Positions 27,802 to 36,291 of a stretch of DNA of 64,000 nucleotides are shown piece by piece. Numbering within the stretch: position 1 is the stretch's first letter; every line of letters begins with the position of its first letter. The notes under the pieces were generated by a model that saw nothing but the letters and a program-made list of their open reading frames with translations, had not been told where the DNA came from and searched no databases. The DNA is from Streptomyces capitiformicae (GTDB lineage Bacteria; Actinomycetota; Actinomycetes; Streptomycetales; Streptomycetaceae): positions 6,269,486-6,333,485 of the forward strand of contig NZ_CP022161.1 in the NCBI RefSeq assembly GCF_002214185.1. Direction: 5' to 3'. The translations under genes and the position numbers were made by a program.

Positions 27802-28614
27802 ATGGCAACCATCAGCTCAATCAGCCCGACCCAGGGCAGCAGCGGGGACGTTCTGACCATCACCGGCACCGGCCTGGGCAACAGCACGGTCACCACCAAG
27901 GTGAACTTCGGGGCCCGAACGGTCACCCCCAGCACCGTCACCCCCACCTCCGTCACCGTTACCGTCCCGCCGCTCTGCGGCGGGCAGTACAACGTCAGCG
28001 TCACCGCCTCAGGATCGACCAGCAACTCACGGTCGTTCTTCTACGTCGGCGCCCCGGTGTGCACGTTCCTGAGCCCCGCTCAGGGACCGGAGACCCCCAC
28101 GGAAGCCGTCACCATCATCGGCACCGGCCTGGCGACCACGACGTCGGTGACCTTCGGCGCAGAGGCCCCGGTCACGACCCTCACCACGGTGGGGGACACC
28201 ACGGTCGTCGTCACCCCTCCCGCGCACACCGTCACCGGTGACACGGAGACCGTGGGTGTCGTCGTCACCACCATCGGCGGCGACAGCGTCTCAAACAGCA
28301 GCGCGTCCCAGTACACCTACTACAACCTCCCGACGGTCACCTCGGTGTCCCCCTCCACGGGAGCGGCCGGCGAAACGGGCATCGTCGTCAACGGCACCAG
28401 TTTCGTCGATGTCTCTGTCGTGACCTTCACGAACACCGTCACCCCCGCCGACACCTTCGACGTGCCGCTCGAGGACATCATCGGGCTCGGCTCGACCCAA
28501 CTCGTCGTCCCCGCACCCGCCGGCCTCACGTCCGGCCAGGTGTACCACATCACGGTCACCACGCCCGGCGGCGAGAGTACGCCCGTCGCGGCGGACCAGT
28601 ACACCGTGACCTGA
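27802..28614 (+). CDS. IPT/TIG repeat protein, three domains, no signal peptide
   Basis: 270 residues from ATG 27802, preceded by AAGAAGGAGACACATC. Three IPT/TIG immunoglobulin-like units begin at ISSISPTQGSSGDVLTITGT, CTFLSPAQGPETPTEAVTII and VTSVSPSTGAAGETGIVVNG; each ends with a VTVTTxGG-like strand. The composition is rich in Thr, Val, Gly and Ser. There is no signal peptide, transmembrane segment or anchor, yet such domains are normally extracellular. Two cysteines occur near the first/second domain border. A second IPT gene follows 133 bases on. A structural or adhesive role is inferred. Confidence 0.85.
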   Translation: MATISSISPTQGSSGDVLTITGTGLGNSTVTTKVNFGARTVTPSTVTPTSVTVTVPPLCGGQYNVSVTASGSTSNSRSFFYVGAPVCTFLSPAQGPETPTEAVTIIGTGLATTTSVTFGAEAPVTTLTTVGDTTVVVTPPAHTVTGDTETVGVVVTTIGGDSVSNSSASQYTYYNLPTVTSVSPSTGAAGETGIVVNGTSFVDVSVVTFTNTVTPADTFDVPLEDIIGLGSTQLVVPAPAGLTSGQVYHITVTTPGGESTPVAADQYTVT

Positions 28615-28747
28615 GAACCCCGCGGCCCCTGGCCCCAGGCTGACGGCCGCCCTTCAGCACACCCTGAGCGCGGCGTGCGCAGACCGCTGTGCCCTGGCCG
28701 GAGTCGGCCAGGGCACAGCGCACACGGTAAGCGACAAGGAGAACGGC

Positions 28748-29989
28748 ATGGCCGCGGTGATCAGCAGCCTCAGCCCCAGTCAGGGCCCCAGCGCGGGGGG
28801 GCACACAGTCATGATCAACGGGACGGGCTTCACCGGCGCCACGTTGGTGAGGTTCCGCACGACGTCCGCATCGTTCAGTGTGCTGAGCGCGACGAGGATC
28901 ATCGCTATCGCCCCCGCGGGCACTGGGTCGGTGGCGGTGACGGTCACCACTGCGAGCGGGACGAGCAACAGTGCCGTCTATACGTATGTAACGACGCCGG
29001 TGATCACCGGTCTGAGCCCGAGTCAGGGGCCCACTGCCGGCGGAAACGTGATCACGATCCAGGGGACGGGGTTCACCAGTGCCACCTCGGTCGCATTCGG
29101 CCTGACGCCCACGTCGTTCAATGTGGTCAGCGCGACGCAGATCACCGCCACCGCTCCCACGGGCACTGGGTCGGTGCCGGTCACGGTCACCACTGCGAGC
29201 GGGACGAGCAACAGCGTCTTCTACACATACGCCGTGACGCCGGTGATCACCGGTCTGAGCCCGAGTCAGGGGCCCACTGCCGGCGGAAACGTGATCACGA
29301 TCCAGGGGACGGGGTTCACCAGTGCCACCTCGGTCGTATTCGGTGTGACGCCCACGTCGTTCAATGTGGTCAGCGCGACGCAGATCACCGCCACCGTCCC
29401 CGCGGGGCCGGCAGCGCCGGTCAATGTCACGGTCACCACGCCGGCGGGGACCAGCAACCCGATGGTGTACTCCTATATCGCGGCTCCGGCCGTCATCTCG
29501 CTCGACCCGGGCATGGGGCCGGAAGCCGGCGGCAACACGGTGACCATCACCGGCACCGATCTGACACTCGCCACTGCCGTCACGTTCGGTACCAACGAGG
29601 CCACGAACATCAACGTGCTCTCGGACAGTCTGATCACGGCCGACGCTCCCGGCGGCACCGACACCGTCACCGTCACCGTCACCACGCCGGGCGGTACCAG
29701 CACGCCCGGTACGGGCAACGCCTACTACACCTACGTCGGGATCCCGGCGATCGACAGCCTCATCCCCGACGAGGGACCGGCCCACGGGGGGAGCAACGTT
29801 GCCATCTTCGGAAGCAACCTCACCCATACCGATGAAGTCCGTTTCGGCGGCACGGTGACGTTGTTCGCAGCTGTCTCCGACAACCTGGTTGTCGCCACCT
29901 CCCCGGCAGGGGAGCCCGGCACGGTCGACGTCACCGTTCACACCCCCGGGGGCGACAGCAACGGTGTCGCGTACCAGTACGAGGCGTGA
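28748..29989 (+). CDS. IPT/TIG repeat protein, five domains, no signal peptide
   Basis: 413 residues from ATG 28748 (AAGGAGAACGGC upstream). It consists of five consecutive IPT/TIG units of about 81 residues, each starting with a variant of VISSLSPSQGPSAGG and ending in VTVTTxxGTSN and a Tyr-rich strand. Units 2 and 3 are nearly identical also at DNA level, pointing to recent duplication. Like its neighbour it has no export signal or anchor and no cysteines. The two genes share orientation and style and probably form one operon. Confidence 0.87.
   Translation: MAAVISSLSPSQGPSAGGHTVMINGTGFTGATLVRFRTTSASFSVLSATRIIAIAPAGTGSVAVTVTTASGTSNSAVYTYVTTPVITGLSPSQGPTAGGNVITIQGTGFTSATSVAFGLTPTSFNVVSATQITATAPTGTGSVPVTVTTASGTSNSVFYTYAVTPVITGLSPSQGPTAGGNVITIQGTGFTSATSVVFGVTPTSFNVVSATQITATVPAGPAAPVNVTVTTPAGTSNPMVYSYIAAPAVISLDPGMGPEAGGNTVTITGTDLTLATAVTFGTNEATNINVLSDSLITADAPGGTDTVTVTVTTPGGTSTPGTGNAYYTYVGIPAIDSLIPDEGPAHGGSNVAIFGSNLTHTDEVRFGGTVTLFAAVSDNLVVATSPAGEPGTVDVTVHTPGGDSNGVAYQYEA
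28994..29396 (+). repeat. Tandem duplication of one IPT unit (243-bp period)
   Basis: 28994-29153 and 29237-29396 match over about 160 bp with only a handful of differences, exactly 243 bases (81 codons) apart. The duplication is in frame and preserves the domain boundary. Confidence 0.85.
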
Positions 29990-30050
29990 ACCAAGCCCGG
30001 GGCCGGCAGACTACGGCGGGCCGGAGGGCGGAAACACCCGACCGCACACT

Positions 30051-31256
30051 CTACTTGTGGTGGGGCCGGCTCTTGACGTCAGTGGATTCGTCGACAGCGC
30101 TGCACTGAACGTTCATCCGACCCGAGTCCAGACTCAGGCCACTGGTGTTGCCGCAGGCGTTGTTCTGGCGGCCTTCCTGAGCGATGTTCTGCTGGATCAA
30201 AGTGGCGGCGCTGTCGCCGCCGGTGGCCTGGGCGCCACCGTTGTGGGTGACGGTGCCCTTGTTCTTCGAGCTGTCGAGTGCCACGCAGTCCGCCTCGGTG
30301 CTGCCGAGGACGCCACTGTTGTTGGTGTTGCCGCACGCGTTGTTCTGGCGGCCCTCCTGAGCCAGGTTCTGCTGTGCCGCCCCCAAACCGTCGCCGCCGG
30401 TGGCCTGGGCGCCACCGTTGTGGGTGACGGTGCCCTTGTTCTTCGAACTGTCGAGTGCCACGCAGTCCGCCTCGGTGCTGCCGGGGACGCCACTGTTGTT
30501 GGTGTTGCCGCACGCGTTGTTCTGGCGGCCCTCCTGAGCCAGGTTCTGCTCGTTCAGGATGGAGACGCCGTCGCCGTCGCCGCCGGTGGCCTGGGCGCCA
30601 CCGTTGTCGGTGACGGTGCCCTTGTTCTTCGAGCTGTCGAGTGCCACGCAGTCCGCGTCGGTCTCACCGGAGACGGTGCTGTCGTTGGTGTTGCCGCACG
30701 CGTTGTTCTGGCGGCCCTCCTGAGCCAGGTTCTGCTGGTAGAAGGACGACTCACCGCCGGTGGCCTGGGCGCCACCGTTGTCGGTGACGGTGCCCTTGTT
30801 CTTCGAGGTGTCGCGTGCCGCGCAGTCCGCCTTCATCTCACCGGGGGAGTCCAGCGCGCTGTTGGTGTTGCCGCAGATATTGTTCTGCCGCCCCTCTTCG
30901 GCGAAGTTCTGCTGGTACACGGCGTCGTCGCCGCCGACGGCCTCGGCGCCGTCGGCGGTGGACGAGGCATCGACGCTGTGAGACTGGTCAATGGTCTCGC
31001 AGCCCGCTTCGGACAGGCCGTCGAACAGAGAACCGGCGGACGACGAGAAGAAGCCGCAGGCGTTGTTCTGCCGGCCGTCCAGCGCTGTGTTCTGATCGAA
31101 CACCTCGGCCACGCCCGATCCCCCGACGGCCTTCGCGCCGCCGTCCGGTCCGTCGGGCTCTTCCGCTCCCGCGCTCACGCCCGTGGACAGCAGCCCGGCG
31201 AATGCCACGGCCGCGAGCGCGGCGTCCCTGGCCCTGCGTACTGCGCCGGTCCTCAT
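30051..31256 (-). CDS. Secreted Cys-pair repeat protein (QNNxCGN repeats)
   Basis: 401 residues from ATG 31256 (AGGAGG upstream). A Sec signal peptide (MRTGAVRRARDAALAAVAFA, cleavage near SAGA) is followed by six repeats of about 50-60 residues. Each has the core QN-x(4)-EGRQNNACGNT, a variable loop, ADC, and a linker DSSKNKGTVTDNGGAQATGG. Each repeat has two cysteines. The Q/N/G-rich pattern recalls amyloid-forming curli repeats and the small aerial-hypha proteins of Streptomyces, but no known family was recognised. It is divergent from a second protein with the same core motif, and convergent with the IPT genes. Confidence 0.8.
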   Translation of the reverse strand: MRTGAVRRARDAALAAVAFAGLLSTGVSAGAEEPDGPDGGAKAVGGSGVAEVFDQNTALDGRQNNACGFFSSSAGSLFDGLSEAGCETIDQSHSVDASSTADGAEAVGGDDAVYQQNFAEEGRQNNICGNTNSALDSPGEMKADCAARDTSKNKGTVTDNGGAQATGGESSFYQQNLAQEGRQNNACGNTNDSTVSGETDADCVALDSSKNKGTVTDNGGAQATGGDGDGVSILNEQNLAQEGRQNNACGNTNNSGVPGSTEADCVALDSSKNKGTVTHNGGAQATGGDGLGAAQQNLAQEGRQNNACGNTNNSGVLGSTEADCVALDSSKNKGTVTHNGGAQATGGDSAATLIQQNIAQEGRQNNACGNTSGLSLDSGRMNVQCSAVDESTDVKSRPHHK

Positions 31257-31525
31257 ACATCCTCCTGCAGAACGCTCACGACCTCGGGCCTTTTGGGATC
31301 TCCAACGCTGTACCTTCAGTCAGGGCACGACCTACATATGAGGAGTCCCCCATATGCCTGCTTCCTGTGATGTGTGCGCTCTTGAGGAGATCGCCCGGTC
31401 GTCCGCGGCGCGATGCGCTGTTCGAGTGACGGCATGTCCCGGCCCGTGACCCGCTGGTCCCGTTTCGGTTGACCGGTTCCCGGGTCGCGATGTGCTGCTC
31501 GTCGGCCAACTACCGGAGATACCGA

Positions 31526-32344
31526 ATGGGTGCGATCGGCAGGACAGCGCTGCTGGCGATGGCCGTCAGCGCTCTTCTCGGTACGAGCGGGGAAGATGCC
31601 CACGCGAGCGCTCTCGATGACGCAGTCGGCGACGGGGCGTTCGTCACCGCTCAGGAAGGCGACCAGAACTTCGACTGCGGCAACACCCGTGACCTGATCA
31701 ACGTCAACGTTCTGCGCACCACCCGGCGGGAAACGTGTTCCGGCTACGGCGACACCGGATTCACCGGCTACGGCACATCTGCGGTCGGCGGCACTGCTCT
31801 CGGCCCTCAGTTCACCACGGCGCAAAGCGGCGAACAGAACCTCCACTGCGGCAACTCCGCCGACATGCTCACCCTCAACGTCCTCGGCACCATCGAGGAA
31901 AGGACCATCTGCGACACCGAACAGGGCCTGGGTCGCTCCGATGGCAGGGGGCGAGGCCCCGGTCCCGGCCGTGGAGATGGATCCGGCCCTGCCTCGGCGG
32001 TCGGCGGCACCGCTCTCGGCCCTCAGTTCACCACGGCGCAAAGCGGCGAACAGAACCTCCACTGCGGCAACTCCGCCGACATGCTCACCTTCAACGTCCT
32101 CGGCACCGTCGACAAAAGGACCACGTGCACGGCCGTGGACCGCTCCGGCGAACTCGCGTCTCACGACGGCTTCCACCGCGGCAAGGCCACGGCTGAGAGC
32201 GGCACCGCAGTGGGCCCGCAGTCCGCCACCGCGCAGACCGGCAGCCAGAACCTGTATTGCGGGGCCGACGAGGACCTGGTGAGCGTGCCCGTCCTGGGCG
32301 AGACCCGCAAAGACACCATCTGCGCGGCAAGGAAGGGCCACTGA
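31526..32344 (+). CDS. Secreted Cys-pair repeat protein (QNLxCGN, rodlin-like)
   Basis: 272 residues from ATG 31526 (GGAG 9 bases upstream); earlier in-frame starts lack such a site. The signal peptide is GRTALLAMAVSALLGTSG ending near HASA. Four repeats contain GDQNFDCGNTRDLINVNVL, GEQNLHCGNSADMLTLNVLG (twice, nearly) and GSQNLYCGADEDLVSVPVLG, each followed 8-10 residues later by a second Cys in TxC. The pattern PQ-x(6)-G-x-QN-x-x-CGN ... NVL ... C resembles rodlins (RdlA/RdlB), which coat aerial hyphae and spores; the comparison is from memory. A Gly/Arg/Pro-rich spacer separates repeats 2 and 3. Confidence 0.75.
   Translation: MGAIGRTALLAMAVSALLGTSGEDAHASALDDAVGDGAFVTAQEGDQNFDCGNTRDLINVNVLRTTRRETCSGYGDTGFTGYGTSAVGGTALGPQFTTAQSGEQNLHCGNSADMLTLNVLGTIEERTICDTEQGLGRSDGRGRGPGPGRGDGSGPASAVGGTALGPQFTTAQSGEQNLHCGNSADMLTFNVLGTVDKRTTCTAVDRSGELASHDGFHRGKATAESGTAVGPQSATAQTGSQNLYCGADEDLVSVPVLGETRKDTICAARKGH
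31781..32107 (+). repeat. Two near-identical 111-bp blocks (216-bp period)
   Basis: 31781-31891 and 31997-32107 differ at only about two positions. The offset of 216 bp is 72 codons, so the duplication kept the frame and gave repeats 2 and 3 of the protein. Confidence 0.85.
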
Positions 32345-32345
32345 G

Positions 32346-32543
32346 GTTTCCGATTCGGGGTGACGTCATGGCGGTGTCGTTATCGAGTCCGGTCTCGGCG
32401 ACAAACCCGTCGAGCAGGCCGGGCCGGTACTGCAGCCGTTTGAGGCGTGTGCGGACCAGCCCGGCCAGGTCATCGACACTGCACGGGGCGAGGTTGCCCA
32501 GGCTCTTCTTCAGATGTGCCCACACACCCTCGGCACCACTGCT
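32346..32543 (-). pseudogene. IS630-type transposase, C-terminal fragment
   Basis: The minus-strand frame reads AEGVWAHLKKSLGNLAPCSV, then DDLAGLVRTRLKRLQYRPGL, LDGFVAETGL. This is the end of an IS630-family transposase, where the third catalytic acidic residue lies in the E-GVW motif. Upstream sequence and both ends of the element are gone. It directly follows the stop of the secreted repeat protein. Confidence 0.7.
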
Positions 32544-32605
32544 GGTACCGCCACCAGAGCCTGGCCCAGCTCGCCACCGCCTTCCTCGCCGTCCAGGACG
32601 CCACC
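32543..32605 (+). pseudogene. Second transposase tail fragment (opposite strand)
   Basis: WYRHQSLAQLATAFLAVQDA resembles the final WxRH-x-x-L-x-x-LAHAFLAV strand/helix of IS701/IS4-type transposases. Only about 20 codons remain. It joins the IS630 fragment to the truncated AfsR-like gene. Confidence 0.35.
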
Positions 32606-32646
32606 ACCCTGCGTGCAGGGCCCAGCCTGCTCCGCCCGCTTCACCG

Positions 32647-33867
32647 ATGAGACCGCCGCACCAGCGCCGGCCCACACAGGCCCTGGAGAGTCTGGTCGAC
32701 ACGAGTCTGGTGCAGGAGCCGCGGCCGGGTCGGTATCGGCTGCACGACCTGGTACGGGTGCACGCGCGGCGGGTCGCGGCCGCGGAGCCGAGGGAGGCCG
32801 CCGCCTCGCGTACGGCCGCGCTCGGCCTGTTCCTGGAAGCGGCCCGCACCGCCGGCGACTGGGGCGCCGCCGGTTTCCCCACCGGGCCCCGGCCGTCCGG
32901 CGCACGGTTCATGGACTGGCGGAACGCGGAGGCATGGCTGGATGCGGTCGGCGGTGAGCTCGTCGACGTCGTCGCGTACGCGGCGGCCCACGGCGAGGCC
33001 GACCATGCCTGCTGGATCGCCGAGGCCCTGTGCGACTACTTCGTACGACAGGGCCGCTACCACGAGAGCCAGACGGCTCTGGAGATCGCACTCGGGCACG
33101 CGGACGCCGCGACCGACGCCCGGATGGCGCCCGCTCTGCGCAACTGCCTGGGCTACACCGGCGTGCACCAGCGCCGGTACGAGCAGTCGTACGCCGTGTT
33201 CACCGAGGCGTTGGAGCTCAGCCGTCGCCTTGCCGAACCGGGTCAGGAGGCTTGTGCCCTCACCGGGCTGGCGACCGTCGATCTGAGTCTGGGCCGGAGC
33301 GAGGAGTCGATCGCGCACGCCGCCGCCGGGCTGGACCTGGCCCGGAGCCTGGGTCACCACTGGGCCGCCGCGATGTCCGGCCTCACCCAGGGCCTCTCCC
33401 ACCAGTTCGAGGGGCGGAACGCGGAGGCATTGGCCTGCTTCACCGAGGCCCTCACCCACGCCGAGGCCGGCGGCAGACCGGGCGCGCTCGGCAGGGTCCT
33501 GAGCTGCGCGGCCGACATCCAGTTGCGTCTCGGCCGGTACGGCGAGGCCAAGGACCTGCTCCGCCGGGCGGTCCCCCTGGTCGAGCAGGTCGGCGACGTC
33601 TTCTTCTGTGCGCGAAGCCTGACCCGGCTGGGTACGGCGCGGACGCACGAGGGAGCCCCGAACGCGGCCATCGCCCTTCACCACCAGGCCCTCCATCAGC
33701 ACCGGCTGCTGTCCCCGCTCACCCAGCCCGGCTACCACTGGCTGGAGATGGACATCCGCACCCGCCTGGGCCACGCCTACCTGGCGGCGGGCCGCGCACG
33801 CGAGGCGCAGGCCCAGTTCCAGGCCGTGCTCGACGTGTACGATGCCCGCCCCGCACGGCCGCGGTGA
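32647..33867 (+). pseudogene. AfsR/SARP-type NB-ARC-TPR regulator, C-terminal half
   Basis: 406 codons from an in-frame ATG at 32647. ALESLVDTSLVQEPRPGRYR followed by LHDLVRVHARR is the conserved junction after the NB-ARC ATPase of AfsR-like regulators, and the rest is tetratricopeptide repeats (RYEQSYAVFTEALELSRRLA; RNAEALACFTEALTHAEAGG; RYGEAKDLLRRAVPLVEQ). The DNA-binding and NTPase domains that should precede it (some 500 residues) have been replaced by transposase fragments. Translation of the remnant is possible, but it should be inactive as a regulator. Confidence 0.75.
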
Positions 33868-34564: not shown

Positions 34565-35368
34565 CTACCCTTCCGAGACCTTCGTTCCACGCACATCACG
34601 CTGCGGCAGCCGAGGAACCGTCTGCCGAAGCCGGGGCGGCGCCTCCATCCAGGCTGCCGCGGCGGAGGCGGCGGTCAGCAGAACGCTCATATTTTCCGCG
34701 AAGTCGGGGCCAGGCAGGGGAAGTTCGAAGTCCGGGTTGTCGACGTAGCCGAGGGCGACGGCTCCCGGGACGTAGTGCATGACCGCGTCGACGAGTTCCG
34801 TGCGGCGGGGTGGGGTGGTGCGGTCGAGGTGGGTGAGGGCGCGCAGGACCGTGGGGAAGCTTGCGTCGTACGCGGTCGGGACGCCCGGGTCCGGGACCGC
34901 CAGGAGGAACTCGGGAGCCGGGCGGGTGCCGATCTTCGTCTGTTCGCGCCACCAGGCGGCCGCCTCCGCGTCGCCCAGGACCAGGTGCTGGAGGTAGAGG
35001 CAGTACGAGGCGAGGTCGTCGCCGGCGCCGGCCGCGTACTGCCACCAGGAGCGGGCACTGTCCTCGGCGTCGGCGAGTTGGAGGACGCAGCCGAGGACGC
35101 GGGCGCCGGGCGGTTCCGGCAGGTGCTCGGTGACGAAGTCCTGGAGGGAGTCCGGTGTGGTGTGGGCCAGCACCGTCTCGCACAGGGTGCGCAGATCGCG
35201 GGCGGCCATGGCGCTCGTGCCGTCGCGCTGCCCGGCGCCGGGGGCCCGGCAGGGGGCGCCGGGGACTATGTCGTGCGGGACGACCGGCTCGTCCAGGAGG
35301 AGTGCCCGGGCCAGGAGTTCGTCCATCGGAGTCATCGGAGACCTCGGAGTTATCGGGGTGGGGATCAT
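34565..35368 (-). CDS. Hypothetical protein downstream of the XRE-sigma gene
   Basis: 267 residues; the ATG overlaps the preceding stop (ATGA), so it is translationally coupled to the sigma-like gene. The sequence is mostly helical and acidic, with DLRTLCETVLAHTTPDSLQD, CVLQLADAEDSARSWWQYAA and ASYCLYLQHLVLGDAEAAAW in the middle. The last two resemble helical-repeat units seen in Streptomyces proteins encoded next to such regulators. No membrane segment. It may modulate the sigma-like factor; this is inferred from coupling only. Confidence 0.7.
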   Translation of the reverse strand: MIPTPITPRSPMTPMDELLARALLLDEPVVPHDIVPGAPCRAPGAGQRDGTSAMAARDLRTLCETVLAHTTPDSLQDFVTEHLPEPPGARVLGCVLQLADAEDSARSWWQYAAGAGDDLASYCLYLQHLVLGDAEAAAWWREQTKIGTRPAPEFLLAVPDPGVPTAYDASFPTVLRALTHLDRTTPPRRTELVDAVMHYVPGAVALGYVDNPDFELPLPGPDFAENMSVLLTAASAAAAWMEAPPRLRQTVPRLPQRDVRGTKVSEG

Positions 35369-36291
35369 TCTGGGGTCTCTCCCAGGTCGTTCTGGGGGTG
35401 GAGCGCGGCGGTCAGGGTCTTTCGGGCATAGCGGTCGGCCGTGTGGACCGAGGCGATCGGGACGCCCAGGACGTCGGCCACGGCGGCGTGGTCCATGCCG
35501 CGCAGATAGGTCAGGACCATGACGTCCAGTTGGTGGGCGGGCAGTCGGCTGATGGCCTTGAAGAGGGCCATCGACTCCTCGATCTGCGCGAAACGCGCCG
35601 TGGGGGTCGACAGCATGCTCAGGGCGACCGTGTCGAACGCGGTACGGGCCAGCTCGGGGCCGCCGTCCACGTGGCAGGCTCGGGCCATCACACTCTTGCG
35701 CAGCACCGACCACGCGAACGGCACCACGTCGGAACTGGCCAGGGCCTCGTCCCACCGGAACCACAGCACGTCAAACGTTTCCGCGACCACCTCGCCCGCC
35801 TCCTCCTCGCTCACGAAGAGCCGGGCGTAGGCGAGATAGGCGCAGCGGTTGAGTTCGGTGAACGCCTGGTGCTCCAGCGGAGGTACGGCGGGCCCGGTCG
35901 ACAGGGTCGCCCACCGGTGCTGGTTCTGGCGGCTCTGGATACAGCCGTCTATCCAGTCCGGCTTCTTCTGCGCCTCCAGCGCGGCGGCCATCCACAGCCG
36001 CCGCATCGGCCAGGTCGGTACGTCGAGGACGTCCAGCAGGCCGTAGGTGATCTCCCAGCGCGGGTAACGGCCCGTGCCGCGCAGCAGTTCGGAGATCTTC
36101 GACTTCGCCCAGCCCGACCGGTCGCTCAGCTCGCTGATCGTCAGGCCGCTGGCCAGGAACCGGATCCGCAGGGGCTCCAGCCAGGCACGGTGGGCCGTAC
36201 CCACGCCCTCCGCTATCGGCCCCAGCTTCCGGCCCGGCTTACCCGCCGGCGCGCCCCCTCCGGGCCGCCGCGACAGGGACGGCGGGGTCAC
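35365..36291 (-). CDS. XRE HTH fused to an ECF-like sigma factor
   Basis: 308 residues from GTG 36291, overlapping the upstream stop (GTGA). Residues about 30-95 form an XRE-type HTH (LASGLTISELSDRSGWAKSK, ISELLRGTGRYPRWE). Residues about 140-215 resemble sigma region 2 (LNRCAYLAYARLFVSEEEAG, VVAETFDVLWFRW), and 235-300 resemble region 4 (AISRLPAHQLDVMVLTYLRG, DHAAVADVLGVPIASVHT). The fusion joins a gene-specific DNA-binding domain to a sigma-like module. It is the middle gene of a three-gene coupled operon, divergent from a Ser/Thr kinase. Confidence 0.78.
   Translation of the reverse strand: MTPPSLSRRPGGGAPAGKPGRKLGPIAEGVGTAHRAWLEPLRIRFLASGLTISELSDRSGWAKSKISELLRGTGRYPRWEITYGLLDVLDVPTWPMRRLWMAAALEAQKKPDWIDGCIQSRQNQHRWATLSTGPAVPPLEHQAFTELNRCAYLAYARLFVSEEEAGEVVAETFDVLWFRWDEALASSDVVPFAWSVLRKSVMARACHVDGGPELARTAFDTVALSMLSTPTARFAQIEESMALFKAISRLPAHQLDVMVLTYLRGMDHAAVADVLGVPIASVHTADRYARKTLTAALHPQNDLGETPE

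Follow-up and report, generated by a model that had tools for sequence, protein, structure and literature searches.

The described systems closest to the proteins treated here are the rodlins and chaplins of Streptomyces and two layered amyloids, FapC and the curli subunits CsgA and CsgB. Rodlins RdlA and RdlB are two related secreted proteins, and RdlB has an amyloidogenic Q/G/N-rich stretch (PMC5314377). Chaplin and rodlin genes are named among the key targets of the sigma factor BldN in PMC4125116 and PMC4255298, and its recognition site is given as CGTAAC-N16-CGTTGA in PMC2375139. FapC has three repeats and is encoded in a fap operon (PMC12822426), whereas CsgA and CsgB consist of repeats of about 22 residues without cysteine. 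Here, we analyze a pair of genes, encoding proteins A and B, in a 64,000-nucleotide stretch of Streptomyces capitiformicae DNA (positions 6269486-6333485 of contig NZ_CP022161.1, an 11-Mb single-contig genome), hereafter called the window. With a probability of roughly 55%, we read A and B as secreted amyloid-type coat proteins under BldN-type control at aerial-hypha formation, probably with a rodlin-like role, and by sequence neither rodlins nor FapC. The central features, in window coordinates, are as follows (ECF, extracytoplasmic function; L-numbers denote related loci):

30051-31256, minus strand: protein A, 401 aa, secreted, with six QxGxQN/Cys-pair repeats of about 60 aa
31526-32344, plus strand: protein B, 272 aa, secreted, with four QxGxQN/Cys-pair repeats of about 60 aa and a predicted FapC/CsgA-like beta-solenoid fold
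31302-31329, minus strand: promoter-like site of A, ECF-type, CGTGCC-N16-CGTTGG, 45 nt upstream of the A start; equivalent in L008, L009 and L016, not in L017
31445-31472, plus strand: promoter-like site of B, ECF-type, CGTGAC-N16-GGTTGA, 53 nt upstream of the B start; equivalent in L008, L009 and L017, not in L016

Both genes are transcribed divergently from an intergenic gap of 269 bases, the single short region that an earlier note on this DNA had described. Each protein starts with a Sec-type signal peptide, and a sortase motif was seen at neither C-terminus (both judged by eye). Protein A contains six QN-x2-C cores spaced 59-62 aa apart and protein B four cores spaced 57-72 aa apart; a second cysteine follows every core, adding up to 12 and 8 cysteines, respectively. 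The copy numbers and the second cysteine are thus as the earlier note had them, but the strict form QN-x2-CGN-[TS] is missing in one core of each protein, being present in five out of six cores of A (the first reads CGF) and three out of four of B (the last reads CGA). The repeat unit can roughly be written as A-x-GG...Q...AQ-x-G-x-QN-x2-C-GN...(about 15-21)...C-x-A. Family-wide, 553 of the 631 A cores and 115 of the 116 B cores retain QxGxxN, the median unit spacing is 64 aa in both families, and members (fragments included) carry two to 11 repeats. One member, P0090, combines A-type repeats with a transposase domain (PF13701), to which they are fused.

The kinship of A and B that the earlier note had proposed holds in three comparisons that all lie beyond chance. 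BLASTP aligns the two window proteins at 1e-8. Repeat profiles, built from 616 of the 631 A cores and 113 of the 116 B cores after exclusion of end units, P0090 and P0121, align with a probability of 98% (hhalign), the score being 66.6 versus at most 21.1 in 100 column shuffles. For the family profiles the probability is 99.9% (E 7.6e-32). Judged by these alignments, A and B are homologous and their repeat unit is common by descent. The family is unnamed in the libraries searched: neither A nor B matches a Pfam or NCBIfam family above cut-off. The refuting outcome named by the earlier note, a repeat model that hits a characterised family with another role, did not arise in the searches of Pfam, NCBIfam and the Protein Data Bank (PDB) or with the curlin model PF07012; the note itself knew of no described system of this composition. 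A literature search, which most subscription papers fall outside, yielded no description of these proteins in titles or abstract openings among the matches listed.

The fold of B is predicted to be a beta-solenoid, and the best listed structural matches of the model, in one comparison over 111 chains, are FapC (9u4u) and CsgA. By sequence, these systems stand apart. No FapC chain of the PDB was found at E <= 10 with the alignment profiles A1 and A3, each search returning one chance row, and no fap-like domain was found in the nine window open reading frames (ORFs), A and B included, that were scanned with Pfam and gave TIG, TPR, LacI, permease, sigma-r4 or nothing above cut-off. While FapC has its three repeats, the A/B family varies from two to 11 and adds a cysteine pair to each. 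PF07012 had no match at E <= 10 in the own genome, the E. coli control being matched. Against ten E. coli curlin repeats, the score of A was reached by 3 of 100 shuffles, over 11 columns, and that of B by 44 of 100; curlin kinship was rejected and the likeness of A is treated as convergence on QxGxxN. The units also differ in size, about 22 residues without cysteine in CsgA/CsgB versus about 60 with two in A/B. Chaplins, too, are secreted by Streptomyces, and CGN motifs and cysteines occur in some of them, yet they carry a short hydrophobic domain where A and B have the QxGxQN repeat, and A and B are unlisted for PF03777 at E <= 10. We file A and B as functional-amyloid-like coat proteins in kind, not as members of the rodlins, curlins or Fap.

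A and B might instead be stable beta-solenoids that do not polymerise but, once secreted and cross-linked by their cysteines, act as adhesins or matrix proteins on surfaces, partners or wall polymers to which they bind. The conserved cysteine pairs would suit such a function, as would the signal peptides, no wall anchor being seen by eye. So would the expansion in some strains, easier to reconcile with recognition or adhesion than with one coat: among 91 A clusters from the protein search, 29 are named Streptomyces sp. NPDC051776 and 11 NPDC048639. However, two amyloid fibril subunits head the listed structural matches, and the Gln/Asn/Gly framework is the one used by FapC (PMC12392863). We regard the adhesin explanation as rather unlikely, though it deserves more credence than the other two rivals below.

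The promoter-like sites may connect the pair to development. In the divergent loci, CGTGAC-N16/17-nGTTGA lies 46-53 nt upstream of B in the window, L008, L009 and L017, and CGTG[TC]C-N16-CGTTG[GA] lies 45-59 nt upstream of A in the window, L008, L009 and L016. The B site at 31445-31472 is the sole match of its pattern in the window. The combined pattern CGTG[ACT]C-N16/17-[ACG]GTTG[AG], derived from the window, L008, L009 and L017 and widened after L016, with L014, L015, L020 and L024 agreeing, occurs 12 times in the window and 18 loci together (508,506 strand-bases). Of these matches, eleven are located directly upstream of an A or B start; the twelfth, in L017, lies 46 nt upstream of a B gene that the end of the contig truncates. 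As background, three matches occurred in 800,000 strand-bases drawn from 20 stretches of the own genome, including two at chaplin genes. Counted per first-gene start, 12 out of 17 carry the pattern; those without it are A in L017 (where a near variant is visible by eye), L011 and L013, and B in L016 and L012, and three of the 17 starts (L012 B, L013 A and L016 B) are placed only roughly. The loci are not all independent: L008 is closely related to L009; L014, L020 and L024 apparently belong to one species; L022 is a repeat of L014; and L019 overlaps with L023. B has no site of its own where the pair is codirectional (four loci), and in four further A loci (L018, L019, L023 and L029), whose A starts are not located, no pattern match was found.

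Rodlin genes have a comparable site. The pattern nGnAAC-N16/17-nGTTG[AGT] is found 38-54 nt upstream in 10 out of 12 rodlin upstream regions; both the regions and the pattern were chosen by eye before counting, and the background was six matches in 800,000 strand-bases. One chaplin gene of the own genome has CGTAGC-N16-CGTTAC at 49 nt, and a second chaplin locus (L059) has no such site. The A/B sites are thus similar, not identical, to those of rodlins, as the fourth -35 base is G instead of A. A matrix of the rodlin sites recognises the B site in L017 (p 0.006), the window (0.02), L009 (0.03) and L008 (0.09), and gives no hit at the A sites where the pair is divergent. From these motifs, A and B seem to carry an ECF promoter of the BldN/rodlin class, and BldN is the likely sigma factor.

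The distribution of the family is narrow and patchy. The protein search gave, besides the 91 A clusters, 30 B clusters (the B profile returned 54 rows, a few of them A proteins); all organism-named sources are Streptomyces, and the nearest named A protein, from Streptomyces sp. NBC_00019, is 96% identical. With the own genome included throughout, A was found in 3/392 genomes of the genus and in 3/200 of the family, one of the latter weak and with stops; B was found in 5/199 genomes, three of them weak (E above 1e-6). These counts are lower bounds because the wide searches scored few candidates per genome. Distant copies may be missed as well, because within the own genome a search with A found only the A gene and a search with B only the B gene. 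In two other genomes of the genus (L005 and L006), frames interrupted by stop codons give weak matches to B, possibly decayed copies or chance. No A or B match was found in 72,556 plasmid records (E 1e-5).

Where B occurs, A is nearly always its neighbour. A search for related loci with the B sequence alone found none, and alignment A1 gave ten B loci in nine other genomes, L010 and L017 being two contigs of strain F63 and apparently one locus. A adjoins B in eight of these nine genomes; in the ninth (L012, S. aurantiogriseus), B lies without A within its 20.8 kb. The arrangement is divergent, as in the window, in L008, L009, L017 and L016, while A lies upstream of B on the same strand in L011, L013, L014 and L015. 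Beyond A/B and the TIG genes described below, the flanking genes have no common order and no gene family is common to more than three loci; the pair therefore sits at unrelated sites and apparently moves or disappears as a whole. An XRE/DUF397-like group, named by eye, recurs in L012 and L015 only. Of the neighbourhood whose conservation in relatives the earlier note had proposed as a check, the A/B pair is conserved, which speaks against the complete lack of conservation that would have refuted the note, but the whole four-gene set is found only in the closest relatives (three of the nine genomes).

Rarity, patchiness, flanks not in common and multiplication in few strains would also fit fast-evolving secreted proteins with an unrelated function, for instance in interbacterial or self-recognition, under a stress-type ECF promoter other than that of BldN; the -35 box indeed deviates from the BldN site by at least one base in all 12 sites. 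Yet the core residues and cysteines are strongly retained, the spacing and most of the -10 box are the same as in the rodlin class, and rodlins are negatively associated with A/B. This explanation appears improbable to us.

Unlike A, rodlins are common among genomes of the genus, having been found in 112 of 150, but they occur in one of 12 carriers of A and/or B (Fisher 7.5e-6) and in one of nine genomes with the A+B pair (Fisher 1.9e-4); these counts ignore descent. The carriers include two with A only (G253 and G464, the latter of another genus) and one with B only (G574), and among the 150 genomes are the own one and perhaps G106, apparently of the same species as L014. The unrelated flanks of the A/B loci argue against a single inheritance behind the association. 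No rodlin was found in the own genome, and chaplins are present elsewhere in it. S. avermitilis is reported to lack rodlins (PMC4255298), and strains of that name carry A and B. Two genomes weigh against this complementarity: G125 and G135 have rodlins along with weak B-like matches (E 6.6e-6 and 9.2e-4), which were not counted as carriers.

Such a distribution could also be expected if A and B were diverged rodlins. Rodlin genes form divergent pairs in some genomes (G002, G573), as A and B do in five loci including the window but not in the four codirectional ones, the promoter class is similar, and B contains PQ...Q.G..N..C; the earlier note had likened a PQ...G..N..C...NVL...C pattern in B to rodlins. 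Another feature in common is the Q/G/N-rich stretch of RdlB. The rodlin profile, however, aligns with the A and B repeat profiles at probabilities of 0.2% and 1.3%, and 18 and 6 of 100 shuffles, respectively, score as high, so kinship by sequence was rejected. Moreover, rodlins comprise one unit instead of tandem repeats, and their cysteine spacing differs. The rodlin profile is thin (14 sequences, several duplicated; Neff 1.9) and may miss a remote kinship, but we hold descent from rodlins to be very unlikely, the least probable of the explanations considered.

The reading as an amyloid-type coat would work as follows. A BldN-type ECF sigma factor would switch on both genes as aerial hyphae form, and A and B would be exported via Sec, their cysteine pairs probably being oxidised to disulphides outside the cell. 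Each repeat of about 60 residues would form one beta-solenoid layer held by its Q/G/Q-N core, a fold predicted for B and presumed for A. Monomers could then stack end to end, possibly A on B, into amyloid-type fibrils like FapC and CsgA subunits, to be placed beside chaplin fibrils on the aerial hypha or spore surface. Alongside chaplins, the pair would fill a rodlin-like role in lineages mostly without rodlins. The fibre-forming coat suggested by the earlier note is the best reading of A and B, given the FapC/CsgA-like model of B, the BldN/rodlin-like promoter and the lack of rodlins in most carriers. More tentatively, and with less confidence than in a coat function as such, A/B may have arisen independently, in hyphal bacteria of the Gram-positive type, as a layered amyloid like FapC and curli that has two cysteines in each layer, does not need outer-membrane export machinery and replaces rodlins as chaplin partner in rodlin-less streptomycetes under the same developmental sigma factor. 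If true, a solenoid amyloid whose every repeat carries a cysteine pair would join the layered amyloids known from Gram-negative bacteria, which would be useful for amyloid evolution and materials. No rodlin was found in a quarter of the sampled genomes of the genus (38 of 150), and an amyloid-like pair with a BldN-like promoter in such species would offer a direct test of what shapes the aerial surface.

The earlier note joined A and B to two IPT/TIG multidomain neighbours, and all four ORFs are found where it placed them:

27802-28614, plus strand: IPT1, 270 aa, three TIG domains (PF01833, E 3.6e-26), no signal peptide seen
28748-29989, plus strand: IPT2, 413 aa, five TIG domains (PF01833, E 3.6e-66), no signal peptide seen

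The own genome has a single further TIG match, in another ORF (E 0.001), and with TIG this scarce, its company with A/B is unlikely to be chance. Among the related loci, the three closest to the window (L008, L009 and L017) have TIG genes flanking A/B, and none were found at the remaining ones (tblastn E 1e-4). Where they lie varies: towards A in the window and L017 (in opposite orientations), towards B in L008 and L009. The surface role proposed for the TIG proteins is not borne out: none of the four complete ones (two each in the window and L008) has a visible signal peptide, and the N-termini of IPT1 and IPT2, preceded by a good ribosome-binding site, are the first TIG strand itself. The A/B promoter pattern has no match upstream of the TIG genes in the window, L008 or L017.

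Three further ORFs lie close to B. At 35365-36291 (minus strand), 3 kb from B, an unusual sigma-like regulator combines an N-terminal HTH_31 with a C-terminal sigma-70 region 4, and the genes called in related loci include no relative of it that was found. The ORF at 32091-32912 (minus strand), located at the end of B, looks by eye like the C-terminal remnant of a transposase, with no Pfam match. The start of a TPR-repeat ORF at 32257-33867 (plus strand) overlaps the end of B; it resembles the C-terminal part of an AfsR/SARP-type regulator and is perhaps a remnant.
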